Shown here piece by piece: positions 14,456 through 64,000 of a stretch of 64,000 nt of DNA. This stretch comes from Bolinopsis microptera (taxonomy: Eukaryota; Ctenophora; Tentaculata; Lobata; Bolinopsidae): the NCBI RefSeq assembly GCF_026151205.1, contig NC_087073.1:5167001-5231000 (forward strand). Reading direction: 5' to 3'. The position numbers and the translations under genes were made by a program. Below the pieces are notes generated by a model. That model saw nothing but the letters and a program-made list of their open reading frames with translations, was not told the DNA's origin and did no database searches. The first letter of the stretch is position 1, and every line of letters begins with the position of its first letter.

Positions 14456-16345
14456 TCTTCATTCATTATTTAAATCCTAAAACATAAATTTCGTTCGAAC
14501 AATCACAAAACATTGAGCATTGAACTTGGGAGATTCCATGCGTAAAATCCAACAGTTCCTCCGAAGGTTGGGTCGTATATAAAACCGGTCAGATTTAGAT
14601 TACGAAGACAAGATATGTATAAAAGACTAGATTTTAATCCTTGCAAATATTCAGGAGCTGACGAATATGAACAGGGGAAAAGAACAGCAGAACGGAGCAA
14701 CTTACAGAGAAACGAAACAGTGGTTTAGAGAAGACGGGAAAGAGCTCTAAGTATTGAACTGTGGCCTTGGGAAAAACATTTAAATACATTCTTGAGTCAA
14801 TCAACTGCCATGAATGGTTATAAGGTGATAACATTTCTTCTGAACATATCCTATAGTACCACATCTTTGAGTAGAATTTTAAGAAAATGTTACCATTTTT
14901 CTTAATTGTTGTCTTATAGGAATTTTGTTGGTTGTCTTATAGGAATTTTGAAAATCTTATCTTTTATTCTTGGATATTGATTTCTAATGTTAATCAAATG
15001 ATTAGATCTTTGTCTGTAGACTCACCTCTACAGCTTAGTCATAAATCAATACATATTACAATTTTCTATTTAGTTTTCTTCATAAAAGCCGATAATCAAG
15101 GACTAAATAGCTAAATAGATATCAAGTTTTTATTGCTAGGCGAAAAAACCACTTCTTGAATAATGAATATACAATGTATATGAAATTAGTTAGTTATTTA
15201 TTCCAACGGTGTGTTGCAAGTTGTTAATCATTTTTATCCAATTTTGGCTTATACTTGTAACTTATTGTAACTATTCTATTTCGCGAAAATTATAAAATTC
15301 GATTGTTGGAAGTGGAAGCCACGTCTATTCAACCTTAAATTTATTTTACATACCTTGGCAAATAAGCTAGAAACCCCATTCTTAAATATTTCAATAGGTC
15401 GTTAAATGTAGCATATGACCTTAAAAATGTAAACATGTAATGACTCATGCAGTAAATGTATTATGTAATATACAGCAGCAATATTGTACGGTTCATGATT
15501 TAGAGGGTTTAACTATAGTTTTTATGATTAAGCTCTGATAAGCTGACGATTCCCCACGTACTTGATTTTATATGCGTAGGAGTTGATTATTGATAACAAG
15601 TAAATTTTTCCTAATGATCAATCATAAGATTTACGAAGTATTGAGAACTGTGTGACGCTTGATAGTCGGAAATCTAGATTAAAGTTCCATGCTCAGATCT
15701 GTACAAATCTTATCGTGATTTAACGGCTTGAGTATTTTTAGTTCTGGCACGACAGAATGATTGAGCGATTTTGCAAAACGGAGATTTAAGTACTTTGATA
15801 AATTTTAAAGATGGACGGAAATATTTCTTGATATATTGTGTATCCCGGATATGAATGATGAATGATAGAATTTTTAATTAGACTAGAAGTAGACAATTAT
15901 TATAGACAATGAAGATTTTTGATAACCAGTAGGAAGGGTGAATTTATTTTGATAATTTGAAGGACCGATCCCATCTTGACACGTGACGTTTAAATATACT
16001 TGTTTTGGAGCGGGAAGCTCAGAGTTCGTGAGAGCAGTTCAGAGTCTTTGAGAGTTTCAGGATTTCCAGAGCTTGAGAGCTGAATATTGTAGAGTCCCTT
16101 TGTTGGTACACTATTCATTGATTTCTTGTTGATTATTTAGCGAGTTTCAGTTGTTCCCCAAGATTCGACAACCTACTAAAACTAAACAAAGATCCCAATA
16201 ATTTAGCAAAAGTTCCTCTGCCTCACTACAATATACAACAAGATACAACCGGAAACGATTCTAAATCAATCTTTTTTCGGTTTCCAGTTAGCCGGCCCAT
16301 AAACGGCGTGTAGAAGAGAACATATTAGAATTAAATACTGGATTT
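14456..16345. other. intergenic, no gene seen
   Basis: AT-rich, open frames below 80 codons with no recognisable content. A moderately purine-rich stretch with repeated GAGAG/CAGAG words lies at 16010-16090, just before the satellite; its nature is unclear. Confidence 0.45.
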
Positions 16346-22300: not shown

Positions 22301-25300
22301 AATTGAGGTACCGGGAGTCAAAATCCCGAATAAAATTGCAAAATCATACTGTCCCAATCTCTGTCCCATTTTCAGTTTTTGAAGATGAAATTTCCAGGAC
22401 CGAAATTTTACAGTTTTTACTAATTGTTTCACCTGCAACCAATTAGTAAGTCAACTATAGATGGCATATGACACGATTGGGGTACTGAAAGTTTAATTTC
22501 GGCCGGAAGAAGCGCACAGCAGAAAGCTTAACAAAACGAAAAACTGTATTTTCAAAAGTCTGTCCCATTTTCAAATATGAAATTTTCTGAACACAAATTT
22601 GACAGATTGGATAAAGTTTTTGCCCAGAAACCAATTAGTCAGTTAATTGATGATGGTATGAAACCAAATTGAGGTACCGGGAGTCAAAATCCCGAATAAA
22701 ATTGCAAAATCATATTGTCCCAATCTCTGTCCCATTTTCAGTTTTTGAAGATGAAATTTCCAGGACCGAAATTTTAAAGTTTTTACTAATTGTTTCACCT
22801 GCAACCAATTAGTAAGTCAACTATAGATGGCATATGACACGATTGGGGTACTGAAAGTTTAATTTCGGCCGGAAAAAGCGCACAGCAGAAAGCTTAACAA
22901 AACGAAAAGTTGTATTTTCAAAAGTCTGTCCCATTTTCAAATATGAAATTTTCTGAACACAAATTTGACAGATTGGATAAAGTTTTTGCCCAGAAACCAA
23001 TTAGTCAGTTAATTGATGAAGGTATGAAACCAAATTGAGGTACCGGGAGTCAAAATCCCGAATAAAATTGCAAAATCATATTGTCCCAATCTCTGTCCCA
23101 TTTTCAGTTTTTGAAGATGAAATTTCCAGGACCGAAATTTTACAGTTTTTACTAATTGTTTCACCTGCAACCAATTAGTAAGTCAACTATATATGGCATA
23201 TGACACGATTGGGGTACTGAAAGTTTAATTTCGGCCGGAAGAAGCGCACAGCAGAAAGCTTAACAAAACGAAAAGTTGTATTTTCAAAAGTCTGTCCCAT
23301 TTTCAAATATGAAATTTTCTGAACACAAATTTGACAGATTGGATAAAGTTTTTGCCCAGAAACCAATTAGTCAGTTAATTGATGAAGGTATGAAACCAAA
23401 TTGAGGTACCGGGAGTCAAAATCCCGAATAAAATTGCAAAATCATATTGTCCCAATCTCTGTCCCATTTTCAGTTTTTGAAGATGAAATTTCCAGGACCG
23501 AAATTTTACAGTTTTTACTAATTGTTTCACCTGCAACCAATTAGTAAGTCAACTATATATGGCATATGACACGATTGGGGTACTGAAAGTTTAATTTCGG
23601 CCGGAAGAAGCGCACAGCAGAAAGCTTAACAAAACGAAAAGTTGTATTTTCAAAAGTCTGTCCCATTTTCAAATATGAAATTTTCTGAACACAAATTTGA
23701 CAGATTGGATGAAGTTTTTGCCCAGAAACCAATTAGTCAGTTTATTGATGATGGTATGAAACCAAATTGAGGTACCGGGAGTCAAAATCCCGAATAAATT
23801 GCAAAATCATATTGTCCCAATCTCTATCCCGTTTTCAGTTTTTGAAGATGAAATTTCCAGGACCGAAATTTTACAGTTTTTACTAATTGTTTCACCTGCA
23901 ACCAATTAGTAAGTCAACTATAGATGGCATATGACACGATTGGGGTACTGAAAGTTTAATTTCGGCCGGAAGAAGCGCACAGCAGAAAGCTTAACAAAAC
24001 GAAAAGTTGTATTTTCAAAAGTCTGTCCCATTTTCAAATATAAAATTTTGTGAACACAAAATTGACAGATTGGATGAAATTTGTGCCCAAAAACCAATTA
24101 GTCAGTTAATTGATGATGATATGTAACCAAATCGAGGTACTGGGAGTCAAAATCCCGAATAAAATTGCAAAATCATATTGTCCCAATCTCTGTCCCATTT
24201 TCAGTTTTTGAAGATGAAATTTCCAGGACCGAAATTTTACAGTTTTTACTGATTGTTTCACCTGCAACCAATTAGTAAGTCAACTATAGATGGCATATGA
24301 CACGATTGGGGTTCTGAAAGTTTGATTTCGGCCGGAAGAAGCGCACAGCAGAAAGCTTTACAAAACGAAAAGTTGTATTTTCAAAAGTCTGTCCCATTTT
24401 CAACTTTTCAAATATGAAATTTTCTGAACACAAATTTGACAGATTGGATAAAGTTTGTGCCCAGAAACCAATTAGTCAGTTAATTGATGATGATATATGT
24501 AACCAAATTGAGGTACTGGGAGTCAAAATCCCGAATAAAATTGCAAAATCATATTGTCCCAATCTGTCCCATTTTCAGTTTTTGAAGATGAAATTTCCAG
24601 GACCGAAATTTTACAGTTTTTACTGATTGTTTCACCTGCAACCAATTAGTAAGTCAACTATAGATGGCATATGACACGATTGGGGTACTGAAAGTTTAAT
24701 TTCGGCCGGAAGAAGCGCACAGCAGAAAGCTTAACAAAACGAAAAGTTGTATTTTCAAAAGTCTGTCCCATTTTCAAATATGAAATTTTCTGAACACAAA
24801 TTTGACAGATTGGATAAAGTTTTTGCCCAAAAACCAATAAGTCAGTTAATTGATGATGATATGTAACCAAATTGAGGTACTGGGAGTCAAAATCCCGAAT
24901 AAAATTGCAAAATCATATTGTCCCAATCTCTGTCCCATTTTCAGTTTTTGAAGATGAAATTTCCAGGACCGAAATTTTACAATTTACAGTTTTTACTGAT
25001 TGTTTCACCTGCAACCAATTAGTAAGTCAACTATATATGGCATATGACACGATTGGGGTACTGAAAGTTTAATTTCGGCCGGAAGAAGCGCACAGCAGAA
25101 AGCTTAACAAAACGAAAAGTTGTATTTTCAAAAGTCTGTCCCATTTTCAAATATGAAATTTTCTGAACACAAATTTGACAGATTGGATAAAGTTTTTGCC
25201 CAGAAACCAATTAGTCAGTTAATTGATGATGGTATGAAACCAAAATGAGGTACCGGGAGTCAAAATCCCGAATAAAATTGCAAAATCATATTGTCCCAAT

Positions 25301-25378
25301 CTCTGTCCCATTTTCAGTTTTTGAAGATGAAATTTCCAGGACCGAAATTTTACAGTTTTTACTGATTATTTCACCCGC
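16346..25378. repeat. satellite array: about 25 units of about 366 bp with higher-order structure
   Basis: The word GACAGATTGGA recurs at about 16743, 17112, 17478, 17844, 18210, 18576 and so on to 25176, a constant 366-bp step, 25 times including a diverged first copy. Each unit contains two related halves: both carry GTCCCATTTTCA (199 and 167 bp apart), followed by AACCAATTAGT and then a GGGGTACTGAAAG or GAGGTACCGGGAG segment, so the unit is an old dimer. Diagnostic variants (ATGAAACGAAATTG, AAAAACTGTATT, TTTTAAAGTTTT, GATGAAGG) repeat every fourth unit. The outer units at both ends, especially after 24.0 kb, are more diverged. The right edge lies only 190 bp from the UBA52 stop codon. There is no long open frame through the array. 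Confidence 0.97.
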
Positions 25379-25567
25379 AAGAAACCTAATTTTGGAAAAG
25401 CCATTTCTCGGTAATAGTAGTGTGAATGATCAGATTCTCATCTCACCAATTATTTACAAGAAGACAGCTGCATAAACAGGTTTACTGAGCTTGTGAATTT
25501 GTATTATATTTTGGATGTTGGAGCAATAAAACGATAATTTTGGATAAAAATTAAAACAATACAGAAT

Positions 25568-31800: not shown

Positions 31801-32403
31801 TTTACTGATACTCTGTACTCTTCTAGTATCTGTATCAACTCTTGTTTCTCCGCGTCCTTTAGTCGGTCTGAGAAAGTTCCAGAACTATGAGAATAATGTT
31901 GTAATCACAAAGATGATTTACTTATTAGATAAGCATGTTATATACATCATACATGTGACACACATGTATCAAATGAGACTAACGTGGCCAATTAAAACAA
32001 ACAGTTCTCACCAATAATCACTCTGAGATCATCATAACAACAGAGCTTGTGTCCGAACTTCTGCACGTACTCCAGCACGAGCAGAGAAGGCGACGCAAAC
32101 GCGCACATTTCAATATTTTGCTCCTTGAGCCTGACCACCAGCTCCGCTTTAGCTAGCTCCGGACCTCGCACTGGTCCTGCATCCTCGGCTACTTTCAAGA
32201 GTAGACCTGTCATGTCCTGAACACTTGTATCCGCTCTGAGGGGGAGTTATTGTGTAATAAGAATGTCAATTTGTAACGTAAAGTCTGATCAACTATTATG
32301 CAATAGTTGATCAGAGACTGGGATCAGAAAATTAGAAAGCGAACCCAGAGAAAATATTTGAACTTTTACGACGTCGTTGGAAACTACTCATGGAAACTTA
32401 ACC

Positions 32404-32472
<69 letters not shown>

Positions 32473-34581
32473 CCTAACTAACTAAAAACGGCAAACGATA
32501 TGCTTACTTTTCTAGATTTACTTGAAATTCTGGATCATGAAGAGAGGTTGAGTCTGTTAAAAGTTTGAAGGACGTTTCAAAATATCCTCTGTAGAAATCG
32601 TAGCTGTCTGGCCTGCAGTTAAATATACGTAATGATTAGACATAATATACGATATAAAGATTGGAAATTCATTGTTGATAAATTCAGCACAAAAGTAAAA
32701 TAGGAAACAAATAACGAGGACACTCACTTACTCAGCAATTAAAGCTTGTTTGTAAAGAATGTTGCATTTGTCGGTATTTCCCAGCAGATTATGATAATGT
32801 ATCTTCATTCTGAGACGCTCTCTATCATCAATGATAACGTTCTTGGGGTCCCCCAGTTCCTCAACTGCTTTCTCATACATCCCCATTAGTTCTAATACCT
32901 CCAAATACAATCTGAAAACTGAAAGCACACGATCAGATACTATCTTACCGGGAATTCTTATCCAGTTTCTCTAATATTTACCGAGGAAGAATCCATGCTT
33001 AGCTAACTGTTTAATTTCGTCCGAAGTTGTATTTCCTGTGGAAATTATATCAAAAAAACTAAAGCTCAATTTGTCTCACCTTCCTCGGCCACTTCTTCAG
33101 ACTTCTCCTTGCTCTTCTCAATAATCTTGACCGCCAGAGGAAAGCACATAACTTTACCCAGGTCAGGGTTGTCCTTACCCATGAATACGAGACTAACAGC
33201 GTTCCAGTAGCTGTACGCAGTGGTGGACGTTAACTTGTGTAACCGTGTTGCTATCTGGGAGGAGGCGGTTTAAAGGTGGTTAATTAGCGGGAATTATGTG
33301 TCAATCCGAACCCCTCAGGTTTGGAATCTTGCCAGGAGAGGGACTGGGATGACAGTGTGACATTCCGAATTTATTTTATACTAAAATGGAGAATAACTAA
33401 ATAGCATCATTACGGCAATCAGTAAACTACATCCTGTATTGTGGTGTTCTAGAAAAATTAAAAATGTGTACTAGAAAATTAAAGATGAATTATGTACATA
33501 ACTAAACAGTATAAAATGTAACTCGTTATGTACCTGTTGCTGTTTCTTGTACTCTTTGATTCTAACGTATCCCATAAAGAGTTGTGTTAACATGTCCTCA
33601 CTGTTTGGAGTGTATTTTAGTGCTGTCTCGTACAGCTCTGGTATCAGTTCAGCTGCAAAGTTATTTTATCAAAATATGAAATCTTATTATACGGAACAGA
33701 TTAGGGGTATTTAAGAAGCATGGTATAAAAGAAGCATGGTATAAAAGAAGCGTGGTATATAACGAGCCATAACATTTTGAAATCTGATCATATTGATATG
33801 TCAAAACTTAACCGGCTCAAAAGATTCTCCCTAATTAGTATAACTACTTAAAACACTATTAGCTTTTTAATTTTTTTAACTTTCGTGTAAAACACTAACG
33901 TTGTAAGAGTTCCTTGTAACAAACACTCATAGCTTGTAAAGTAGACTCGTCTAGTGGGAAATGGGACTTAACCTCCTCTAAGAGGGCAAGGGCATCTTGA
34001 CATTTCATCAATCTCACCATAGCCAGCGCTTTCAGGACCTAATAAAACATTGACTTACAGCTCTGGGGATTGTGGCCTTTTTAAACATTGACTAATCTGT
34101 GACTTTCAATTTGGATAAATAGCGAAAGGTTATGATCTACAATTGTTCTCTAAACATGGGGTATATGAACGTGAGATAAGATCTTATTCCTGATTTCATT
34201 CAAATAACATTCTATAATCTACGATCCTTGCTATGTTATATTAGTTCACCTTGGCACAGTGGAAATCCTTCTCTTTTTTCAGGATCTTGTCTGCTCTTTG
34301 GATAGCTTGTTTGTTGTTGAGGTTGTCCAGCGCATCTGTTAAAATAAATTTAAATTATAAATTACAATTAAATTATCTGATGAAAAATCTCAGAAATCAT
34401 AACATAAAATTAAATCTAATTGATCCATCCAACAAATAAGTTTACAAATAAACAAAGTAAATCAGTTGGGAAATCATAGAAAACAAAGCTAATAAGCAGA
34501 CAATTAGTCTAATAGCTGAGATAACTCACCATAGAGCGGGCGTAGTTTTCGTTCCGTCTGAGGATCTCGTCTGTTTGCCAT
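28845..34581 (-). CDS. NAA25: N-alpha-acetyltransferase 25, NatB auxiliary subunit
   Basis: Auxiliary TPR-type subunit that anchors NatB (catalytic NAA20) to the ribosome for co-translational acetylation of Met-Asp/Glu/Asn N termini. I traced 19 exons on the minus strand: 34581-34530, 34335-34250, 34038-33900, 33652-33534, 33254-33080, 33035-32982, 32918-32732, 32612-32508, 32235-32012, 31867-31655, 31455-31359, 31197-31101, 31000-30848, 30565-30397, 30264-29948, 29778-29616, 29483-29398, 29273-29088, 28970-28845. The sum is 2748 bases, 915 residues, close to animal NAA25. The start MANRRDPQTERKLRPLY, the TPR-like RADKILKKEKDFHCAKVLKA, and PNSEDMLTQLFMGYVRIKEY match the family. Middle and C-terminal parts are mainly helical and less conserved. 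The exon 13 donor is ambiguous by a few bases (GAA|GTAGGT chosen because it keeps phase 0). No broken frame was found. Confidence 0.9.
32398..32485. repeat. AACT microsatellite
   Basis: About 21 copies of AACT with one ACCT variant, inside the NAA25 intron between the exons ending at 32235 and 32508. Confidence 0.97.
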
Positions 34582-36674: not shown

Positions 36675-37689
36675 GAACTACTGTCAATTCTACTCAGGAT
36701 GTTTACCATAGTAACTTTATAGGTTTAGGATATGAGACTTTTTTGTCATTAATTTTAAGGTTGGAGTGGACTTTATAACAGATATCGTTTTAATTTCATT
36801 GAACACGAGTTCTTATCTATTTTAAACCTTGTCAAAGAAGTGAAGACTGCCCTAGGGTAGCTTTTATCTTAAAATATAATCACTTCTTATCAGTTCTTGT
36901 AAAACATTCTTTCACATCATAAGCAATTGATCAATTTTATTAGTTCATCGTCTCTGTTTGACTTAGCATGGGATTGCAATAAAAATATTATTTTTTGTCC
37001 AAATGCATGAATGGAACTAAGTAAAGCTTAAACGAAAATTATATATCCGACAAAAAATCCATCTAAACCTGCGTACCTGTAACCAATTATGTAACCATCA
37101 CTGACTTTGAGACATCAACTAGCACGTGATTAGCACTATTTACAAGCTATACATGTATAGGTGTGAGTTAAACTCAACCACATGTTAACCAATTAGCACA
37201 AATCATCCTATTAAGGGCACCATCCTTTATTAGGGTGATTCAGAATTTCCCAACAAGAGAACTGCAAGTTGTTTGGGGATTAAAGCTATCCTTTAGATCA
37301 TTCCAAAACAGAAAAATATGACTAAGATCATTCTTAAGAGTATGCCCAGGCCAAGCCCATATTTTTGCATGAGCCTGATTTTTTGATACTCTAATTGCAT
37401 AACTAAATTATGTAAAATATTATTCCAGAACTATGTAATGCACATACCTTACGAGACATATTTAAATAGTACAAAAAAACATATTTTCACCTATTTTCCT
37501 TAATTATGACTTAATTGATTTACTATCGATATAGTAAGTTATAAATATGATTCATCATACAAATGAACACTAGTGTCCGATCATGAATTGCTTTAAGAAT
37601 GTTCCATTATGAATAAAGTAAGCAAGCTCTGTCACCACTATATTGGCCACGGCGGTATAATTTTGGGAGTAGTGGAAGATTACAGACAC
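36675..37689. other. intergenic, 3' side of the small gene
   Basis: Contains the presumptive 3' UTR of the small gene (an AATAAAAATA poly(A)-signal-like site near 36980) and otherwise AT-rich sequence with no recognisable gene. Confidence 0.5.
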
Positions 37690-38830
37690 TTAGTACAGGG
37701 AAATCCGTCTGAAAAAATCGATCTGCTGACACACGAAGCTTTCAGAGGATTTTTGACGTTTTTGAGTCCCATTAGGTGCCCTTTATGGCTGACCAACTTT
37801 TCCAAACTTTTCCACGTGGCTTAAGGCCACTTTTTGCCACTTTACCACTTTTTACCACCTTTCTTGTTTGTCGAATATCTTTAGTTGTGAACATCGTAAA
37901 ATGTTGCGAATCAATCGAGTGTGTTCATATTATCAGGAAGAAAAACTTTTGTTCAAACAATTTTTACGTCAGATAATAAGGTAATTGGATAATTATCAAT
38001 TAACCAATTAGCAAAATTCTAAAAAATTTTTATTGGCTAAAAATGATCGGAATAGCTTAAAACACGGAGAAAAGTAGTTTTTAGAAAAATTGTAAAATTT
38101 TTCACTTACATTTTTTTTTCGAGACTTCGAAAAATTTCGAAAATTCAAAATATTTTTTTCCGCCAAAAGTGATCAAATTGCATGAAACGCGGAGAAAAAA
38201 ATTTTCAAAAAAACTTTAATATATTTACCAATATTTTTAGTTGGAGTTCAGTAAATCTCGGCAGATTTTAGTAATAATCAGGAATTACTAACTCTAAGTG
38301 GAAAGGTCTGAAACTGAAAAACGTTAAGTTTAACCATACGATCGCGATATAAGAGTTTCATAACTAATTACAATACAGCCTTATCGATTTTCACAGAAAC
38401 TGCACCAATGGCACAGTCAAGATCGAAACGATAGCATGCTGTACTGTCATTTTATTGATTTCAATGATGAATCAGTGGGGTTAAGATAATCACATTTGTA
38501 ATAAATAAAACCTCTCTGTACCGTCAATTGTGCTAATCTAAACCGGCCTACCTGTATTACCAGACCTCTTCTTTTCCTCAACAATCAAACCGAGTTGTTC
38601 ATATCGCATTTGGTGGGTGATGTAAACTGAGTAGTAATACATATCGAGCTATATTCAATCACAATACGACACAGTACGTGTATATTATATGGCTCTTAAT
38701 GAGGTTTATGAAACGCTTTATACTGTGAGAAACCCGGTATAGAGAGGTTTTACAGTTTATCACGAAAACGTCTACTTGGTCTCATGGCTCATTTACAGTT
38801 CGAAGAAGGGCAAGAACAGATCAGGGAAAC
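37690..38830 (+). repeat. left arm of a 3-kb inverted repeat
   Basis: Reading right from TTAGTACAGGGAAATCC, this arm is the reverse complement of 40696 back to about 39521, with only scattered substitutions and a few indels. The similarity starts abruptly at 37690 and fades near 38830, where the arm has CTTGGTCTCATGGCTC followed by diverging sequence. Both arms carry the same open frame of about 66 codons (here 37776-37976), with no recognised domain; its conservation reflects the duplication. Confidence 0.95.
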
Positions 38831-39316
38831 TGAGGAACAGCCAGGTCCAGGAAGCAAGTGTAAATACACCTTCCAACATCTACTGTGACTGTTTTGTATT
38901 GTACTGCATACCGCAATTCATTTGCGGGATACCTCAAATCACCCCCATATGTCAGGGTCAGCTAAAAGTAAAATCAACAAGGGTAACATACGGGAAAGGG
39001 TAAGATTTAGATACGAGTACAGTGTCGGGCAAGGGGTAGTAAAGAACCGGTAATAATTAATTCAGTGAAATGTTCCACGAGAGTCAGGATATTTTGGAAA
39101 TTGCTAATAGAGACAGATCCTGATCAGGAAGGATTGTTAATGTGACTTATTGAGGATATTGATTTGAAATCCGGACGTCGTGAAGTAAAAATACAGGTTC
39201 TTCCCGCAGGATATTCGGGGCCCATGATGATCAGCCCGGGATTAATGTGGGACAGATCGAAGACTGACAACTGAACCCAATTGAATCTAGTTCCCACTAA
39301 CTAATCAGCTTAATTG

Positions 39317-39452
39317 GTTAGGGTTAGGGTTAGGGTTAGGGTTAGGGTTGGGGTTAGGGTTAGGGTTAGGGTTAGGGTTAGGGTTAGGGTTAGGGTTAGG
39401 GTTAGGGTTAGGGTTAGGGTTAGGGTTAGGGTTAGGGTTAGAGTTAGGGTTA
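39317..39452. repeat. interstitial telomeric TTAGGG array
   Basis: About 22 head-to-tail TTAGGG units on the plus strand, with one TTGGGG and one TTAGAG variant. It lies in the spacer of the inverted repeat and is itself flanked by inverted ACAACTGAACCCAATT (about 39268) and AATTGGGTTCAGTTGT (about 39466). Only one strand orientation is present, so it is not a simple head-to-head telomere fusion. Confidence 0.98.
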
Positions 39453-39520
39453 ATCTAAATGTCTAAATTGGGTTCAGTTGTCCGGTAGCCCGCTCTTGCG
39501 AGTTGACATTCTAAGCTTTC

Positions 39521-40696
39521 TGGTCTTTTCTCGCCTTCTTTGAGCTGTCAAAGAGCCATGAGACCAAGTGGACGTTTTCGTGATAAACTGTAAAACCTCT
39601 CCATATCAGGCCTCTCACGGGAGAAACGAGAAGTGTACGGTATAGAACGTTTCATATATAATAATAATATAATATACACGTGTTGCATTGTGTCGTATTG
39701 TGATTGAATATAGCTCGATATGTATTACTACTTAGTTTACATCACCCACCAAATGCGATATGAACAACTCGGTTTGATTGTTGAGGAAAAGAAGAGGTCT
39801 GGTAATACAGGTAGGCCGGTTCAGATTAGCACAATTGACAGTACAGAGAGGTTTTATTTATTACAAATGTGATTATCTTAACCCCACTGATTCATCATTG
39901 AAATCAATAAAATGACAGTACAGCATGCTATCGTTTCGATCTTGACTGTGCCATTGGTGCAGTTTCTGTGAAAATCGATAAGGCTGTATTGTAATTAGTT
40001 ATGAAACTCTTATATCGCGATCGTATGGTTAAACTTAACGTTTTTCAGTTTCAGACCTTTCCACTTAGAGTTAGTAATTCCTGATTATTACTAAAATCTG
40101 CCGAGATTTACTGAACTCCAACTAAAAATATTGGTGATTTAAGTATTCTTGAAACGAAAAATTGACTAAGTTTTTTTGAAAATCATTTTTCTCCGCGTTT
40201 CATGCAATTTGATCACTTTTGGCGGAAAAAAATATTTTGAATTTTCGAAATTTTTCGAAGTCTCGAAAAAAAAATGTAAGTGAAAAATTTTACAATTTTT
40301 TCTAAAAACTACTTTTCTCCGTGTTTTAAGCTATTCCGATCATTTTTAGCCAATAAAAATTTTTTAGAATTTTGCTAATTGGTTAATTGATAATTATCCA
40401 ATTAACTTATTATCTGACGTAAAAATTGTTTGAACAAAAGTTTTTCTTCCTGATAATATGAACACACTCGATTGATTCGCAACCTTTTACGATGTTCACA
40501 ACTAAAGATATTCGACAAACAAGAAAGGTGGTAAAAAGTGGTAAAGTGGCAAAAAGTGGCCTTAAGCCACGTGGAAAAGTTTGGAAAAGTTGGTCAGACA
40601 TAAAGGGCACCTGATGGGACTCAAAAACGTCAAAAATCCTCTGAAAGCTTCGTGTGTCAGCAGATCGATTTTTTCAGACGGATTTCCCTGTACTAA
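39521..40696 (-). repeat. right arm of the 3-kb inverted repeat
   Basis: Reverse complement of the left arm. It ends sharply at CCCTGTACTAA (40686-40696). The inner 200 bases nearest the telomeric array are less similar between arms than the outer 1 kb. No matching direct repeat was seen immediately outside the two outer ends. Confidence 0.95.
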
Positions 40697-41274
40697 CTGT
40701 TGGTTTTCTTCAAAGGCTCAAATTCAAATTGTTTACAAGATGAAACAGCTTATCAGGGAAGATCTTTGTGTTTAATTTTTACAAACATTGGGTTACATTT
40801 TTATAAAATAAGGAGATGAAAAAATTCCCAAATACTATGATTTAATTTGGGGTACGAAATGTGTCAGTTTTTGCAAAACAATTCCCATATTTTCGTTCCC
40901 AAATCATTTAGGTCACCGGAATTATGTCGAACATACATATGTCTTTTAAGGTAGTTAGAATTATCATAACATTGAATGAGTTTGAATAGTAGAAACTAGA
41001 AATATGTTGTAAGTCTTACATGTTTGTTATTCCTTTGAAGAGTTTATCTGTGTTGCCACCTGTGTCCTTGATTTAGGATTTTTCTAAAACCTTTTCCTTA
41101 AGACCCCCACAACAAACTGGCAAATCACAGTTAATTCAGCTTTTTGATTTGGATTTGAAGCACTCATCTGGCTGGCGTAGATGTGCATGTATCCTATGGC
41201 TGTTGTTAACCACCTCACCAACCCATGGACCAGTGGGCTACCATGCTAGCATAGGCACAAAATTGACTTTCTTT
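40697..41274. other. non-coding gap between the two repeat systems
   Basis: AT-rich sequence with no recognised gene or repeat, ending in CTTTCTTT, the proposed left target duplication of the outer TIR element. Confidence 0.4.
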
Positions 41275-41851
41275 GGGGTGTCCAACCCCAAAAGCCCTAA
41301 AAACCCATTCCCAAAATGAAAATTTGAGGTTAAGTTGGGGTTTTAGGGTATATTTGGGTTTTATAATAGAAGAAATTATTCAAACAATATACACATAATA
41401 CAGCAATGACCCTATATAAAAATTCTTTAAAAATGGTACAAATTTTAAAAACTGAGGTAAAAAATAAAACCCTTTGCAATAATATATAACAAATTCACAT
41501 CACAACAAAAAGCAGTTTAGACCCCCATCCAACAAGCATTAAGCACTTCATGACCTTTTAGGGTTTAGGAGTGTTGATCAGGTTAAGGTCCAAATCACTT
41601 ATCGCCGTGGGTGGAAGAGTTCTGGTACCTCTGTATCCCCTGATAGAGATTATACAGGTTCTGAGTAGATCAAAGCGCAGTCTGCGTCTGACAAATGACA
41701 TCACATCACAATACCGTTGGCCTTTCTTAAGGCTGATCTTTTCAGCGAGATGTTTTAGGAACTGAGAAGCCATCAACTGCCATTTCAAACTAATTACAAC
41801 ACTACAAATCTATTACATTTATTGAGGTATGACAATGGAAAGTCCGCTACG

Positions 41852-43006
41852 ATGATAACAAACAGCGGTGAAGACAAGACAGCAGAAACAGAGAGTGTAC
41901 AGCTACCAGACACCTGTGATCCGGAGATATCTCAACACCTGTCTTCTGAAGGTATTGCTTATGTTACACCTGTTGTTTCTCTGTTATGTGGAATCTGTCC
42001 CAAAGATCTTATATCAGAACCTTGTAGCATTCAATGTGATTCCTGTAAGACATTTTTCCATCCTAAATGTCTTGGCAAGTCTGCACCAGTGGACAGTGAA
42101 CGGTGGGTTTGTCAGAAATGTAGGGATAATGTAGAGAACCAGCAGATCGTTGATGCTCCTGACGAGGAAAATGATATCTGTTATAACTGTCCCGTGTGTA
42201 GGAGTGTTGTGGGGGATTCGGATAAGGCATTGGGTTGTGATGGCTGTGAAGAATGGTTCCATGCACCTTGTTTGTTTATCAGTGAAACCGAGTACGCTGA
42301 GATGGATAATGAAGAGATATGGTTTTGTGATACTTGTCAAGCAGTGAAAGCAAACAAAATTAATTGGGGCTCAATGGTTGGTGAAGAGTTGATAGCTGAG
42401 AAAGTCCAAGCTGTTTATCAAGAGATGGTGACATGGAGAAAGAATATTTTCCTAGTTCCCAGAGGTAAATCAGGTAGCGACTTTATAAAAGAACTGACTC
42501 GGCTCATCCTCTTATTTGCAGATGCTACCAAGTGGGAAAGGCTATCGTTCGCACTGGTTCATATCTTCTTGCCAATCATGTTGCAAAAACCGTCAAGCAA
42601 GTCAAAAGCAAGAGACCATGTAACATATCTCACCAAGCGTTTGGTTAAATGGAAAAATGGAGAACTTGACGATCTAATGATGGAGTGCAGGAGTATTCAG
42701 AAAGCCTTGGTGCAGCAACAAAAAATCAGCGAGGAATCCAGGAAGAAGAGTTTCTGCCGACTAATGCTTCTTGGGAAAGTTAAACAAGCCACCAAATATG
42801 TTGACAGTTCCAATGACACCTTAGGAGTTCACAGCCTAACAGCAAACATTAAACAGGTCCTTGGGGAGAAACACCCTCCAGCTGTTAAAGCAGATCCAGT
42901 TGTTCTGCACCCTCACAGTACTCCTCCACCTCAGGAAGTGATATTTGAGAGGATTGACGCAAGAGGGCTTGTTTATATTTGGATGGATCAGGCGGCCCAA
43001 CACTAA
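41852..43006 (+). CDS. retroelement N-terminal region with two PHD fingers
   Basis: First part of the element's coding region, from the first in-frame ATG to TAA. Two consecutive PHD zinc fingers are clear. The first is CGICPKD through CDSCKTFFHPKCLG to WVCQKC; the second is CPVC through LGCDGCEEWFHAPC to WFCDTC. Both have the Cys4-His-Cys3 pattern and the aromatic W/F before the last cysteine pair. PHD fingers read histone H3 tails, so a role in choosing chromatin targets is plausible (inference). Beyond them is a helical, Lys-rich region with no recognised fold. Near 42985 the homologous reading passes into the next frame (GSGGPTLTD, then an in-frame TAA, then DLWKHIICSKSFG), so this and the following frame were probably one protein now broken by a frameshift and a stop. 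Confidence 0.85.
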   Translation: MITNSGEDKTAETESVQLPDTCDPEISQHLSSEGIAYVTPVVSLLCGICPKDLISEPCSIQCDSCKTFFHPKCLGKSAPVDSERWVCQKCRDNVENQQIVDAPDEENDICYNCPVCRSVVGDSDKALGCDGCEEWFHAPCLFISETEYAEMDNEEIWFCDTCQAVKANKINWGSMVGEELIAEKVQAVYQEMVTWRKNIFLVPRGKSGSDFIKELTRLILLFADATKWERLSFALVHIFLPIMLQKPSSKSKARDHVTYLTKRLVKWKNGELDDLMMECRSIQKALVQQQKISEESRKKSFCRLMLLGKVKQATKYVDSSNDTLGVHSLTANIKQVLGEKHPPAVKADPVVLHPHSTPPPQEVIFERIDARGLVYIWMDQAAQH

Positions 43007-43017
43007 CGGACTAAGAT

Positions 43018-45201
43018 TTGTGGAAGCATATCATCTGCAGCAAATCATTTGGCAAAGCATCAGTGACACTTGCTGAGTCTATAGCAATTGTTGCAAGGCG
43101 CCTTTGTAGAGAAGATATCCATCATAGCTGTCTGAAAGAGTTCACTGCATGCAGATTAATCCCTCTTGATAAAGGCCAGGATAAGAACGGGAAACCTGGT
43201 GTAAGACCAATTGGAATCGGCGAGATATTGCGCAGAATCATTGGAAAAGCAGTTATAATGTCTTTCAAAACTGATATACAATATGCTGCTGGCCCACTGC
43301 AGACCTGTGCAGGGCTCAAATCAGGAATAGAGGCTTCCATTCATGCAATGAGACAGATCTGGGAAGACAGTGACACTGAAGCAATACTACAGGTTGACGC
43401 TGATAATGCGTTCAATCGTCTTAATAGAGAAGCAGCCCTTCACAATGTTCATGAGATCTGTCCTCCGCTCTATCAGTATCTAAAGAACCACTACCAAAAG
43501 CCAGCAGACCTGATCATTAATACTACCGAGGACCACTACCAACTTAAGTCTGAGGAAGGTTCAACTCAGGGAGATGTAGCAGCAATGGCATTCTATGCGT
43601 TAGGGATCAAGCCTCTAGTAGATGACCTAGCCACAGCCTCCAAGCCCAGTGTTTGCAAACAGTCTTGGTATGCAGACGACAGTAGTGCTGGTGGAAAGAT
43701 TGAAGGTATTAAGATATGGTGGGATACGCTGTTGGAGCAAGGACCAAAGTATGGATATTACCCAAAAGCCAGTAAGACCGTCCTGATTGTGAAGAATAGC
43801 GAGGACCTAGATCTTGCGCAGAAAGTATTCTCAGGCACTGGTATTAAAATCGAGTCCGAAGGAGAACGCCATTTGGGTGCAGCAATTGGCAGCGAAGCTT
43901 TTAAGAACAAATATGTCTCAGATAAAGTCCATAAATGGTGTCAGGACATCAAGCTGTTGTCATCAATTGCTGTTGAGGAGCCCCAAGCTGCTTTGACTGC
44001 ATATACTAAGGGAATTTGTCACCGGTGGACGTTCATTCAGAGGACCATCCCGGGTATAAGTCACTTGTTTCAACCATTGGAGGATTGCATCAGAACAGAT
44101 TTTATTCCAGCAATCTTGGGTAAGAACGTATCAGACTTGGACCGCTCCATATTTGCATTGCCAGTCAGACATGGTGGCCTAGGTATCTCCAACCCAGTTG
44201 AAAACTGCAATAGAGAATTCACAGCCTCAGTCACCATCACAAAAGACCTCACAGACCTGATTATCAACCAGCAAAACACCCTTGAACATTACAACATGTC
44301 AATTCAAAATGATGCTATAAAAAGTCTCAAGGCAATCAAGGAGAAACACTTATTTACGGTTAGCAAATCAATAGAGGACAGTGTAAGAGATCCCAACCTA
44401 AAGAGATCTTTCCAGTTCATCAAAGAGAAAGGTTCAGGATGTTGGCTTACTGCACTTCCATTGAAGAGATTTGGCTACTCCCTGAACAAGATTGAGTTCC
44501 GTGATGCTCTGTACTTGCGTTATGGTTGGGAGATCCCTAACACCCCATTTCACTGTGCTTGTGGAGAGAGAAATAATGTGAATCACACACTTATATGCAA
44601 GAAAGGTGGCTATGTTTCTATGAGACACAACAACATCCGCGATCTAAATGCAGAGCTGCAGCGTGAAGTATGCAGAGATGTAGTGACTGAGCCAGCATTG
44701 ATACCCCTTGATAATGAAGAAATTGTTGGTACCAATGCTGATAGAGCTGCACCTGATGTATCCTCACGAGGTCTCTGGAGCACATTTGAACGAACATTCT
44801 TTGATGTCTGTGTTACCCACCCCAACTCACCCACATATGACAAAAAAGATATGGAACAGATCTATAAAGCTCATGAAATGAGGAAAATGAAAAAGTACAA
44901 CAACAGAATCATCCAGGTGGAAAAAGGCACCTTTACTCCACTTATATACTCAACAAATGGCGGATGGGGTCCACAAGCCACAAGATACCACAAGAGACTC
45001 GCTGAAAAACTATCCCATAAGAGAGGAGAAGACTATGCGGCTATTATGTGTTACATGCGCACCAGGATTAGATTCTCAATCCTCAGGAGCACACTGATAG
45101 CGGTCAGGGGTGAGAGAGGGAGACGGCAATCGTATACATTGCCAATCAGTGTAACTTCGTTTAACTTGATACCTGCCACCATGGACTATGAATGCTTCTA
45201 G
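43018..45201 (+). CDS. retroelement reverse transcriptase with C-terminal zinc knuckle and nuclease-like domain
   Basis: Long open frame of 727 codons. RT motifs: RLIPLDKGQDKNGKPGVRPI, LQVDADNAFNRLNR (motif A), GSTQGDVAAMAFYALGIKPL (motif B) and WYADDSS (motif C with the catalytic Asp pair). After the thumb comes a CCHC knuckle (CACGERNNVNHTLIC), RHNNIRD, and then AAPDVSS with FFDVCVTHP and later basic residues. This arrangement recalls the restriction-like endonuclease of R2-type non-LTR elements (CCHC, RHN, PD, D). The final 100 residues (FTPLIYSTNGGWGPQA and RHHK-rich helices) are shared with copy 2. The first Met is probably not the original start, since the upstream PHD frame appears to have been continuous with it. 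Apart from that junction the frame is intact, implying recent activity. Confidence 0.88.
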   Translation: MWKHIICSKSFGKASVTLAESIAIVARRLCREDIHHSCLKEFTACRLIPLDKGQDKNGKPGVRPIGIGEILRRIIGKAVIMSFKTDIQYAAGPLQTCAGLKSGIEASIHAMRQIWEDSDTEAILQVDADNAFNRLNREAALHNVHEICPPLYQYLKNHYQKPADLIINTTEDHYQLKSEEGSTQGDVAAMAFYALGIKPLVDDLATASKPSVCKQSWYADDSSAGGKIEGIKIWWDTLLEQGPKYGYYPKASKTVLIVKNSEDLDLAQKVFSGTGIKIESEGERHLGAAIGSEAFKNKYVSDKVHKWCQDIKLLSSIAVEEPQAALTAYTKGICHRWTFIQRTIPGISHLFQPLEDCIRTDFIPAILGKNVSDLDRSIFALPVRHGGLGISNPVENCNREFTASVTITKDLTDLIINQQNTLEHYNMSIQNDAIKSLKAIKEKHLFTVSKSIEDSVRDPNLKRSFQFIKEKGSGCWLTALPLKRFGYSLNKIEFRDALYLRYGWEIPNTPFHCACGERNNVNHTLICKKGGYVSMRHNNIRDLNAELQREVCRDVVTEPALIPLDNEEIVGTNADRAAPDVSSRGLWSTFERTFFDVCVTHPNSPTYDKKDMEQIYKAHEMRKMKKYNNRIIQVEKGTFTPLIYSTNGGWGPQATRYHKRLAEKLSHKRGEDYAAIMCYMRTRIRFSILRSTLIAVRGERGRRQSYTLPISVTSFNLIPATMDYECF

Positions 45202-52830: not shown

Positions 52831-55100
52831 TGCATGCTTCTACCTATGGTCATTGTCAATTTTGCTTTGCCCATTTTGCTTACTTTTTGATTTAAATTTT
52901 TGAGCAGGTTGATAAAGAGCAATTTAATCCTTTCTGATATCATTTTCATCTGAAGATTCCGAATTTTCTGAATTCTTTGGAATGAAGTTTCTATCTCATG
53001 TGGAGCAAAAGTTATGACCTGGTTTTCGATGTGGAGCAAAAAAGTGTGGAGCACCCCAATAAAATCTATGCTTTTTGACTATTTTGATCGCCATTTAACA
53101 AATAGATCCTGGACGTTAATTGCAAAATATTTTCACTGCCAAATCATAAAATGGACCTCAGCCAGTGTGGAGCAGTCGAAATATCCTCATATTTTTCGTC
53201 TCAACCAGGGGTAAACATTACAGTAGAATCTCCGTCTTTTCACAAAATCTTAGTTTAAAGGAATACGCACCAGATAACATTATCAATAATGGTACACCTT
53301 GCTCAACCGATGCGGAGCACGAAACTATTATACCTAAGTTGGGAATACTGATTGGGAAGAAACTGAGTTTTGAAAGTGAGTGTGATTAAAAACGATAAAT
53401 ACATCTAATCAGGCCATAAAAATATCATTTTTTCTTGTGATTATGTTCAGACCCCCTGACTCTATTCTTTGGAACTGCTGATAAACCTAGTAATGCTCAA
53501 CCATGTGGAGCAGAGGACTTTTACTGCATAACATGACTCCTCATCGGCTGATATGACTTGGATGAGAAATTAGAATGAGTATTTTAGCTTTTACAATAAA
53601 TTACTAGCAGAACAGATTGAAAAATTGTATTTAATAGGCTCAACCAGAGAGGAGCAGAATGGAATGATAGATTGATAACACAACTATTTGTAAGGATCAG
53701 TGTTGTTATATTAGGATAAATGAGGAATTATATCATCAATACTTAAGAAGCTGTTGATGTATGTAGTACTGTGTCCTTTAAAGAGAAATATGCCACCGCC
53801 CACCATAGAAAAAGACAATATGCTCAACCGTGAGGAGCAACAGGCTTTTCTACGGTAAAAAGAGTCTCCATGATGGTCGATCTGTAGCCAATTTGTACGT
53901 AATGCAATTTAAAGTTTACTGATATACTTTAAATACTTTTCTTACCATGATTGGGCCATGATTGATGTTCCAGAACTGTTCAGCCAGAGTGGAGCAGAGC
54001 TAGAAATGACATGTCATGTACGGGATTCCTCAACTGCCTAACATTTTATGAAGATCTCTCTTGCATGCAGTTGTAGAATGAAGTAGTGAGCTTCGAAAAT
54101 CTAATACAACAGAAATCATCTCTGCTCCACACAGGTTGAGCACTGAATAGTTCCCGTGAAGTAAGTTTATTGACCACCAATATTATAACATATTTTCTCT
54201 AGAATGAATAAAAATAATATCCCATGAAGCACTTAAAAGTTGTATCGATTGATCAAAAGGAAGACCTCTTTTTGCTCCACATGGTTGAGATAGGCTGTTC
54301 TCGACTAAAGAGTCTGCATCAACGGTGAAAATATAGATACAGGAGTCAAGATGTAAATCACAGAAGTCACTTTATCTCAACCCAGAAAGAATTTAAAAGT
54401 TGGCAAATTTTTAACCATTTTGGGCTCCACAGGGTTGAGAGAAGTGTACTGAATATAAATATCCGTTTCAGTACTCAAAATAGAGTTAGTAAGAGTTACC
54501 AAGCTAAAAAAATCTTACAGATCTAAACAAAAGCATTATGAAAAGCTAATAAATTAAAAATTTACAAATTTCTACATTGCCAAAACCTCGCTCCACGTCG
54601 GTTGAGATATGGTGTGTTATCGCAAATAGTCAAAAACTCTTGAGAGGGGTTTCAGCTAAAAAGTTCATAGAGTTTCAACCAAAAACTTGACTGTTTAGCG
54701 TATGATTTTTGGTCTTGAAAATTGCCTAACTTTCAAGCTACTGCTCCACACAGGCTGAGCATTAAAAGTTGTCTCAACCGGTGCTTTCTGTGTAGATGGG
54801 ACCTTTTTCTGAGAGTCTCAACCTGTTTTGACTGCCAGATTCAGTTACCAACGAGATTGCAAAAAGTTTTAAAATGTCACTTTGAAGCACTGATATGCTC
54901 CACATTGGCTGAGTAACACATATAGATTACATGTTAAAGTGTCCAGTGAACATTTGTTTCCATCTGGGTGAAATATTAACAAAGGGTGAACACCAGGTGG
55001 CATGCTAGCTCACTAAATAGCTCAACCGGTCAAATTGTACCAATTTTGGCAGTCAAATTTGGGCAAAGCAAACTTTACAATGACCCTATGCAAAAATGCT
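52831..55100. mobile_element. inverted-repeat (foldback-like) element with phased motif array
   Basis: The ends are imperfect inverted repeats: ATGGTCATTGTCAATTTTGC then TTTGCCCATTTTG at 52846-52878 versus the reverse complement of 55051-55088. Between them a motif of the form CTCAACC-N2-5-GTGGAGCA recurs near 53046, 53167, 53301, 53494, 53638, 53823 and 53980 in plus orientation, then as TGCTCCAC-N2-4-GGTTGAG near 54123, 54274, 54424, 54589, 54742 and 54896 in minus orientation. Spacing averages about 150 bases, tightest in the right half (150-165). The orientation switch at about 54.05 kb is close to the geometric centre. The sequence between motifs is AT-rich and not obviously repeated. 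No protein is encoded. Confidence 0.75.
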
Positions 55101-61354: not shown

Positions 61355-64000
61355 ATGGACGACTTGAGAGAGCCATGGTACGTAACACGTTAAACTAGAG
61401 ACTGGTAGTAGATAAAGCTATCAGGAGTACAATCGAGTGATGACACGAATTCTCAATTTCTATACCTACCATTCTTCTATTTACACTCCTAACTATAGAC
61501 TAATTTCTAATAATATAGTTTAATAGAATAGAATAACTGTACACTTAATAGCTAACATTTTGATAATATTTCAGTCCATACAGAATCACAGATGATTGCG
61601 GAGGTGCCTTTACGATGGGTTGCCTGGGTGGTGCAGTTTTCTCTGCCATCAAAGGGTTCAGATTAGCTCCTCCTGTAAGTTGATATGCCTCCAAACATTA
61701 TCAGTTCTTATCATCGACAATATTAGGGGCGCAGTCTCATACGTATTTTGTTTTTTACAGAAAAAAGTTCATCTTTAATTTAGGCGAAATAAATTCATGA
61801 CATAATTCTCAAAATATTTATTTCATTCGATTAATGCTTCAGGGAATCAAATCGAGGTTAACTGGAATGACGACATCTGTGAAGGTGAAAGCCCCTGTGC
61901 TTGGAGGTTTGTAATATAATTGGTTGATAACAAAAAAATATTACTATTCAGCACTGCCACTAAAATTAGCATAAAACGCTTTATTTTGATTTGCGTTTGC
62001 GTAACCCGCATTGCTTGTCTGTTAAGTAAATATGAAGGGAGCTCGCACTTAAAACTCGCGTTGATCTAAGCTAAGCTATATAGCGCAGCTGCGCGCGCGG
62101 CTTACTATTCTATTCTAGCTAAACAACATACAGGGTGTACCGTAGAAAATGTGACTTTTTTCCACTTCTGTAATTTTTTACAAAATCAAACTTCATAGTT
62201 ATTTTTAACTAAATTTTGTTGGAAATATATTTGAATTAATGATAGTAATAAAAAAAATTGTTAATAATTAAGAATTTGCTCAAAATATCCACCCTTCTTG
62301 GCAAGTACGTATTGCAGTCGACTATTTAAATTGTTTATTGCCGAACTAATTTGAATTTTTCCAATCTTCCGGCACTCCCTCCTGATGTTCTGTTTGAGTT
62401 CCTCCACTGTTTTTGGGTAAGGGTTGGTGTAAACCTTTGATTTTAAATACCCCCAGAAATAAAAATCGAGAGGATTCAGATCTGGGCTATATTGGGGGCC
62501 ATAGGAATTTCGAGTTCCTGGAGATTAGCCTCTCCTCACCAAACCTCTCTGTCAGCCAGTCAATGGCGACCCGACTGCAATGAGGCGGTGCCCCATCTTG
62601 TTGGAAAGTACATTTTTTTAAGTTGCCCTTCCTTTTCAGAGCTGGTATAACCTTTCCTTTGATCAACTTTATATAATTATCTGTTTTTATTGTCTCCGCT
62701 ACCCCCTCCTTGTCCTCAAAGAAATAAGGACCGATTAAACCAGCATCTTGGCCAAGTGCAACAAAAACAGTAACTCTAGCCCTTGTTTTTGGAGCTTCCA
62801 CCGAGTCATGTGGGTTTTCACTGCCCCAAAATCGCATATTCTGGCGATTAACATACCCTGATAAGTGAAAGTGGGCTTCGTCCGAAAATAATATGTGCTG
62901 TAGAAAATTTTTGTCGGACTCAATCCGATCAGACATGAAATTTGCGAAATCCACACGTTTTTCCTTGGTTACTGGGGTCTGTTTTTCCCTAAGTTGGATC
63001 TTGTAAGGAAATTTCTTCAGTTCTGTTCGTAGCATCCTCCACGTTGAAGTCTTAGATATCCCAAGCTCCCTTGACAAGCTTCTGACCGACCTTCGTGGAC
63101 TGAGTTCGAGCTTCTTCTTGATTCTGTCAAGATTCTTAATTGAAATGACACTTCGGGATCGCCCAGGCGGAGAGATCTTCTTCAGTGTGTAGTTGGTCTG
63201 GAGTTGGTTCACAACCCTCTTTATCTGCTCGTTCGACAGCGTAGGGACCACAGTGGACCACTTTGACCCACGGGATAAAAGTAAACGTCTCACACGAGCA
63301 GGGCTTCGGCCATTTTCAAAATATGCCTCTATTATGGCCATTTTCAGCTCTATAGGTAGCACCATTACGAAACGAAGAGTTGAAAAAAATCAAGAAATAA
63401 CAGAGACTTGATACTTGGTATACACCAATTCGATACATATTGACACAGTGTGATGAAGAGTTTTTAGCAACTGCTCCTTCATAAAAATTTTTATTTTTGT
63501 TCAAAATAGTCACACTTTCTACGGTACACCCTGTATATAACGTCATGTCATGTGACCATGAATTTACTTTTATCAATTTTCTAAATCCTGACCATTGTAT
63601 TTTCAGGAAACTTCGGAACATGGGGCCTCACGTTTGCGGCTTGTGATTGTACTCTGATTTATCTTCGAAACAAGGAAGACCATTGGAATTCGATAACTGC
63701 TGGTGCTGCTACTGGCGGACTTTTGTCCATACGAAGTAAGAGAGCCTTCTTTAATTTATCTTAAATACATCCTTGTGTCTGTCCGCCTGTTAAGCTCCTG
63801 TCCATTCTCTATGTAATTGTCTGTTTTAAACGACGAGATCTCAGGCCGAGTGCGATTGGCACTCTTACACTGTACACACTACGCAGTGGAATGCAATTAG
63901 TGAGTGGGAAACAATTTTCCATACCTCTTAATCAAAAACTGTTTCTATTCCAGGTGGTCCACAAGCAGCAGTTACATCGGCTATAATTGGGGGTGTTTTG
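61355..64000 (+). CDS. TIMM17: mitochondrial import inner membrane translocase subunit TIM17 (5' part)
   Basis: Core subunit of the TIM23 presequence translocase in the mitochondrial inner membrane. Exons: 61355-61377, 61575-61674, 61843-61906, 63607-63735, 63954 to the window end; phases 2, 0, 1, 1. The reading is MDDLREPC, then [103 protein letters not shown], a close match to TIM17. The N-terminal CGG region and Gly-rich (GxxxG) helices TM1-TM3 are present; TM4 and the C terminus lie outside the window. The 1.7-kb third intron carries a mariner-type element on the opposite strand. A CTATTAG acceptor-like site lies 6 bases before the ATG. Confidence 0.95.
62131..63533 (-). mobile_element. 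Tc1/mariner-superfamily transposon in TIMM17 intron
   Basis: Perfectly paired ends: CAGGGTGTACCGTAGAAA at 62131-62148 and TTTCTACGGTACACCCTG at 63516-63533 (one mismatch just inside). TA dinucleotides flank both ends (62129-62130, 63534-63535), the target duplication expected of this superfamily. The length is 1403 bases with a single transposase gene on the minus strand. Confidence 0.95.
62261..63365 (-). pseudogene. mariner-type transposase with one frameshift
   Basis: From ATG at 63365: an N-terminal helix-turn-helix pair ([20 protein letters not shown], then [20 protein letters not shown]) and a DDE/D catalytic core. The first acidic residue is in [13 protein letters not shown] and the second in [13 protein letters not shown]. 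The open frame stops at TAG near 62487 within WPPI, but the family continues in another frame directly after: [20 protein letters not shown] (third acidic residue), then [20 protein letters not shown], to TAA at 62261. One extra base around 62486 explains the break. Apart from this the protein is intact (about 367 residues), so inactivation is recent or the base is an error. Confidence 0.9.

Follow-up and report, generated by a model that had tools for sequence, protein, structure and literature searches.

Inward-pointing sites at largely conserved positions in non-coding DNA transposons of the comb jelly Bolinopsis microptera

In a stretch of 64,000 nucleotides from Bolinopsis microptera (contig NC_087073.1, positions 5,167,001 to 5,231,000; hereafter the window), a short bipartite motif recurs at intervals and reverses its orientation partway along the array. 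This arrangement raises the question of what sort of DNA carries such sites, and what has been preserved in it: the letters of the sites, the DNA between them, or the distances. We addressed this by delimiting the element, comparing it with its relatives in the genome, and weighing what might bind it.

An element with inward-pointing sites

The array lies within a DNA transposon that is young and non-coding, has inverted ends, and is flanked by a duplicated 4-bp target; we call this element family A (Table 1). An earlier note on this DNA had described inverted terminal sequences at the borders of the region, and these are present as imperfect 26-bp repeats that begin with GGTCA and match at 24 of 26 positions. 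The same note's description of a foldback element fails, because the inverted ends of the families described here are only 26–35 bp long and inverted pairs lying wholly inside the element do not exceed 25 nt; an inverted match around the element ends spans 36 nt at 83%. Twelve uninterrupted full-type copies of family A were found, including that of the window, together with three split by nested LINE-like insertions and one that is truncated. The other uninterrupted copies are 98–99% identical to the window copy, apart from one at 93%. A 412-bp deletion form is represented by two copies; these share near-identical flanks and therefore probably reflect one insertion event. With its inverted ends, duplication of fixed length, and near-identical copies dispersed over many contigs and lacking a transposase, the element has the features by which non-autonomous DNA transposons are recognized.

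Table 1. Coordinates of the element and its sites in the window, and distances of sites from the element ends in families A, B and C
Feature	Position in window, or distances (bp)	Strand	Remarks
Left target-site duplication CTAT	52844–52847		same CTAT on other side
Family A non-autonomous DNA transposon	52848–55085		2238 bp; 15 two-ended full-type genome copies
Left terminal inverted repeat GGTCATTGTCAATTTTGCTTTGCCCA	52848–52873	+	0 variant cells of 624, both ends, 12 aligned A copies
Degenerate site	52989–53007	+	right half intact only
GTGGAG half-site pair	53031–53051	+	starts 53031 and 53046; element positions 184 and 199; B 194/207, C 183/197
Site L1	53157–53174	+	310 from left end
CTCAACC half-site	53200–53206	+	counterpart: full site in B, half-site in C
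Site L2	53302–53319	+	455 from left end
Site L3	53496–53512	+	649 from left end
Site L4	53639–53656	+	792 from left end
Site L5	53823–53839	+	976 from left end in window copy, 969 in A consensus
Site L6	53979–53996	+	1132 from left end in window copy, 1125 in A consensus
Site R6	54123–54140	-	946 from right end
Site R5	54273–54289	-	797 from right end
Site R4	54423–54439	-	647 from right end
Site R3	54589–54606	-	480 from right end
Site R2	54742–54759	-	327 from right end
CTCAACC half-site	54773–54779	+	312–313 (TCAACC count) from right end in A, B and C
Site R1	54896–54913	-	173 from right end
Right terminal inverted repeat	55060–55085	-	pairs with 52848–52873
Right target-site duplication CTAT	55086–55089		matches left CTAT
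Right-end distances, A consensus	173, 327, 480, 647, 797, 946
Right-end distances, B consensus	173, 327, 479, 633, 801
Right-end distances, C copy L054	173, 326, 479, 644, 800, 941
Right-end distances, C copy L046	171, 319, 472, 642, 798
Left-end distances, A consensus	310, 455, 649, 792
Left-end distances, B consensus	320, 463, 656, 819
Left-end distances, C copy L054	309, 453, 647, 811
Left-end distances, C copy L046	319, 463, 657, 821

The full site, CTCARCC-N2-3-GTGGAGCA, is asymmetric, comprises 18 letters, and is present in 12 copies, six pointing inward from each end. At up to one mismatch, 12 sites were detected in the element, as compared with a mean of 0.01 and a maximum of 1 in 200 dinucleotide-preserving shuffles, and none in the remaining 61.8 kb of the window. 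The earlier note had counted thirteen copies, seven in one orientation and six in the other; twelve of these stand as full sites (six plus six), and the thirteenth is only the degenerate site of Table 1. The switch of orientation, rightly placed near the midpoint, falls between 53996 and 54123, about 93 bp off the midpoint of the element. The array is also regular, as had been stated, but the period of about 150 bp is a loose figure: start-to-start intervals average about 158 bp, the shortest being 143 and the longest 194. Half-sites, such as the GTGGAG pair and the two CTCAACC copies listed in Table 1, were absent from that account.

The site is a near-palindrome with a single break: position 4 of the left half is A, and the right half has G at the matching position instead of the T that perfect symmetry would demand. 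We pooled 32 sites from the three families; these were picked by motif scan and only if inward-pointing, so that the pool is biased toward the motif, and it excludes the extra full site of B at 361 as well as those middle sites of B and C that overlap or point the reverse way. The A/G break was present in all 32 sites, positions 3, 4 and 6 of the left half (C, A and C) were fixed in 32/32, and GTGGAG was likewise fixed in 32/32 at all but one of its six letters.

Motif columns carry 0.8–1.8 bits each, whereas spacer blocks average from −0.01 to 0.19. As the earlier note had proposed, it is the motif itself that is conserved, and not the spacer. Its remark that the DNA between motifs is not obviously repetitive also holds, except for weak direct repeats in the right arm at lags of 150–161 bp; in family A, 2 of 45 spacer pairs exceed a z of 3 (R2–R3, 3.5; R3–R4, 4.2). 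A simple tandem repeat was rejected on the inequality of motif and spacer columns, and Tandem Repeats Finder (score 40) gives no array inside 52848–55085.

Families A, B and C compared

We searched the whole genome (264.65 Mb in 232 contigs) for CTCAACCNNNGTGGAGCA with up to one mismatch and obtained 142 + 147 matches (289), versus 0 + 2 for the reversed control. Two further families carry such arrays. Family B is 1.5 kb long (1.53 kb at L027:2183–3713) and has about 60 copies (tip matches, 61 + 62). Family C, which was discovered through one C site next to a chance GGTCA, has six copies, two of them full (2281 and 2289 bp) and four of a shorter form, C'. The inverted ends match at 27/27 bp in B and at 34/35 (97%) in C, and the tips differ among the three families beyond GGTCA, the run common to all. 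Among the 32 two-ended copies from the three families, 29 are flanked by perfect 4-bp target duplications (four one-ended rows were dropped from this tally). Their letters are ATAT in 11 cases, TTAT in 7, ATAA in 3, TTAA in 2 and six others once each, giving the consensus NTAN; two further C copies also have perfect duplications (L054, TTAT; L055, ATAT). For L046, one of the full C copies, the ends extrapolated from the layout of A lay near 7697 and 9980, and the actual tips are at 7700 and 9988 (3 and 8 bp off); this prediction was made before the tips were read, but recorded afterwards. One family B copy is inserted inside another (G000:C6:16055395-16058463).

Site positions were taken from the consensus for A and B and from copy L054 for C; L054 was chosen over L046, the other full copy, after both had been seen, and is the better fit (Table 1). 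Right-end distances of 173, 326–327 and 479–480 bp and left intervals of 143–145 and 193–194 bp agree across A, B and C (L054). Across the three families, five of nine homologous intervals differ by no more than 2 bp and the other four by 11–21 bp; with L046 standing for C, four of nine agree to within 2 bp. A pairwise tally, in which 18 of 26 intervals agreed to 2 bp or less, was set aside because the pairs are non-independent and the R4 interval is missing for the B pairs. Half-sites have positional counterparts as well, TCAACC after L1 lying at 354 in A, 362 in B (within a full site) and 351 in C. The two arrays of family B interleave in the middle. Among the larger interval differences, which are few, 10, 11, 20 and 21 bp resemble whole helical turns, whereas 6, 8, 12, 13 and 18 bp do not.

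The spacers themselves have mean ungapped identities of 0.290 (A–B), 0.335 (A–C) and 0.344 (B–C), versus 0.272–0.278 for shuffled sequences. A–B spacers are indistinguishable from shuffled ones (0.290 against 0.272; mean global-alignment z, 0.22). Because A–C and B–C spacers keep weak homology (mean z, 1.9 and 3.6, respectively), A, B and C most likely had a single ancestor and have since diverged almost fully outside the sites.

We then simulated neutral evolution of the spacing with a ratio of small indels to substitutions of 38 to 384, as found among A and B copies. The divergence K, in substitutions per site, was assumed rather than estimated; spacers of near-random identity suggest that it is at least 1. 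When all small indels were allowed, a mean of 0.05 intervals matched at K = 1 and 0 of 20,000 runs reached five; P was 0.00005 at K = 0.3, 0.004 at K = 0.2 and 0.18 at K = 0.1. When indels were limited to 1–3 bp, P was 0.49, 0.13, 0.009 and 0.0016 at K = 0.3, 0.5, 1 and 1.5. With L046 in place of L054 and all small indels allowed, P was 0.0014 at K = 0.3, and none of 8000 runs reached the observed count at K = 1; with 1–3-bp indels, P was 0.74, 0.35, 0.051 and 0.013 at K = 0.3, 0.5, 1 and 1.5. The spacing result depends on the indel model. As judged by sequence comparison, site and spacing have been kept and the intervening letters have not, a contrast that stands with either C copy. The earlier note had suggested that conserved motifs with diverged spacers in other copies would support protein binding sites; families B and C have this pattern, and keep many of the distances besides.

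Within families, all 12 sites (up to one mismatch) were present in nine of 12 A copies and 11 sites in the other three; among 12 B copies, ten had all 10 sites, one had nine and one had six. In tests that ignore the shared ancestry of variants, variant cells in A were rarer in sites (10/2544) than in spacers (192/23539; p = 0.017), and sites in B varied about like spacers (17/2108 versus 162/15520; p = 0.35). At the ends, variant cells numbered 0/624 in A and 3/624 in B. In the one C' copy read (L055), the inward left array is absent and right sites lie at 171 and 326. C' is multi-copy with a degraded left array, and the full array is therefore not strictly required. On the reverse strand of its locus, at about 357–780 when read in the orientation of the element, L055 carries a GC-richer 424-bp stretch that is absent from C and had no Pfam match better than E 0.25. 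The middle of family C contains an internal duplication, 74% identical. The arrays probably grew by duplication, given this copy and the leftover similarity in the right arm of A.

What the sites may bind

Conservation of site and spacing, with spacers free, is as expected for a protein–DNA scaffold, and since two very different elements keep many distances, spacing itself seems to matter. Accordingly, the reading we prefer, at a probability of roughly 0.6, is that the oriented sites would be bound by a protein supplied in trans that folds the element into a defined complex, the spacing being selected and the spacer sequence free. An autonomous relative would encode the predicted binder, either a transposase or, by analogy with Spm/En, an additional DNA-binding protein comparable to the TnpA of maize Spm. 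The binder would load in fixed orientation along both arms; the loaded arms would fold into a defined complex in which the two ends are brought together; and selection would act on the spacing, leaving the spacer sequence to drift. More tentatively, such elements might constitute a metric-scaffold class, in which the internal DNA would be informative only as oriented protein sites and exact distances, with about a dozen sites forming one complex over 2 kb, while tips and spacers would turn over, perhaps escaping sequence-based silencing.

The main rival to an element-encoded binder is a host chromatin or transcription factor, for which the element would be a ready-made regulatory or architectural array and which would itself conserve the site. 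We regard this as unlikely, although several observations speak for it. The tips vary beyond GGTCA around a constant site, the opposite of what would be expected if one transposase had co-evolved with both, and the window copy ends 163 bp upstream of an open frame (from 55248; called makorin in the earlier note) whose similarity to CCCH zinc fingers is weak and below the cut-off (best E 0.0009), and to which no link from the array was found. In one comb jelly, according to PMC12221973, host zinc-finger proteins bind a motif found at loop anchors; that motif, however, is described as GC-rich with two CpGs, whereas the fixed letters here, compared by description, contain no CpG. Further against a host factor, five loci lay outside A and B among the CTCAACCNNNGTGGAGCA matches listed (100 of 289), and these loci (L036–L040) had no array; nor is it evident why such a factor should require exact distances from the tips.

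Two readings without a dedicated binder must also account for the spacing. If packaging fixed it, each interval of about 150 bp seating one nucleosome between neighbouring sites, the R1–R2–R3 intervals of 152–154 bp in all three families would fit, and the AA/TT correlation at lags of 10–11 is slightly above that of dinucleotide shuffles, the sole comparison (z, 0.9 to 3.3). This is nevertheless improbable: conserved intervals also include 173, 143–145 and 193–194 bp, so that no single repeat length fits, the right-side spacer without the site letters is about 135 bp and thus below 147, and spacer AT content (0.62–0.70) resembles the 0.63 of the window as a whole. An old array of 150-bp tandem units, decayed throughout, with functionless sites surviving by chance, could draw on the similarity of neighbouring spacers in the right arm of A and on the duplication in C as signs of growth by duplication. 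Uniform decay is excluded by the difference in information content between motif columns and spacer blocks, and families with diverged spacers still share many site positions, making this explanation very improbable indeed.

A protein bound in trans to oriented sites has precedent in plant elements. As described in excerpts of PMC2613891, TNPA binds the subterminal repeats of Spm/En that are needed for excision and transposition, and non-autonomous CACTA copies can be mobile if cis-acting sequences are kept, the motif being the cis-determinant for an element-encoded protein. The present families resemble Spm/En (CACTA) in their short inverted ends and many internal copies of a short motif. By contrast, the CACTA elements of those excerpts have conserved tips and a variable subterminal motif, whereas here the tips vary past GGTCA and the motif and many distances are constant; their motifs are dense (24 repeats per 732 bp at one border of soybean Tgmt), whereas ours lie about 150 bp apart over the whole element; and the Tgmt duplication is 3 bp instead of 4 (PMC2613891). 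The tips, which read GGTCA with no CACTA or CAC, speak against membership of CACTA/EnSpm; repeats of subterminal type are present. Kolobok elements, in an excerpt of PMC9587614, share the purine-purine...pyrimidine-pyrimidine tips (here GG...CC) and the 4-bp duplication. They are described there as TTAA-specific, with 3–5-bp duplications in the KolobokP lineage, whereas here ATAT accounts for 11/29 perfect duplications and TTAA for 2/29 (consensus NTAN), which speaks against this assignment. Coral CMITEs are also non-autonomous and, as excerpted from PMC2872659, have interiors more conserved between families than their tips; they conserve an internal region, whereas conservation here is confined to short sites and many of the positions they occupy.

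A non-autonomous DNA transposon with internal repeated sites is known, and internal binding sites in transposon ends have been described before; what is new is a largely position-locked, widely spaced array with variable tips and a constant motif, and the conservation of several distances nearly to the base pair over hundreds of base pairs of near-random spacer. Comparison of natural families makes spacing in an end complex, hitherto a vague idea, measurable. Families A, B and C also supply natural variants that could be put straight into a mobility assay, and the comb jelly host adds a mobile-element system for a lineage at the base of animals.

Related sequences and neighbouring features

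The A, B and C copies examined yielded neither a transposase nor a binding protein, and none proved to be autonomous. Tip searches with up to three mismatches yielded 35 matches for A and 12 for C, all of which were covered; for B, no autonomous copy was found among the matches listed (100 of 123). Three long A copies (L021, L022 and L023) contain nested, LINE-like frames resembling an endonuclease and reverse transcriptase, as judged by eye, and no transposase. In family B, L032 has a nested insertion with a Pfam reverse transcriptase, and the long copy L047 has no frame above 108 aa.

Searches for further arrays combined tip and site. At the right end, 81 matches were obtained versus 0 in the control; four lay outside A and B, one of which led to family C and three of which (L043–L045) have one site each. 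At the left end, there were 158 matches versus 13 in the reversed control, at least 9 of them outside A, B and C; L059, the one read of 9 among the matches listed, has no array. A site-pair search returned 83 matches; besides A, these comprised one copy of B at C12 and the single-site locus L048. A second such search returned only B and C' among the matches listed (100 of 319). Neither the A nor the B tip has an exact match in IMG/VR, and no description of such an array was found by title or abstract in the open-licence literature. The single Rfam match, to SCARNA7 at 53340–53459 inside a spacer (27.9 bits against a gathering threshold of 65; E 0.00044), is probably due to chance.

Elsewhere in the window, an open reading frame at 62487–63365 on the minus strand resembles a mariner-type transposase when its motifs are judged by eye, yet Pfam gave nothing for it at an E of either 0.001 or 0.01. 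Adjoining frames at 41822–45201 encode PHD fingers and a reverse transcriptase domain and likely belong to a non-LTR retrotransposon. A large, foldback-like nested inverted repeat occupies 37675–40711, with arms of 428, 149, 447 and 93 nt that are 86–99% complementary, and about 23 copies of the telomere-like GGTTAG (39316–39452) lie near its centre. The 4-bp unit TAAC recurs about 22 times at 32399–32485, and a tandem array of 24.7 copies of a 366-bp unit, with 97% matches, extends over 16342–25380.
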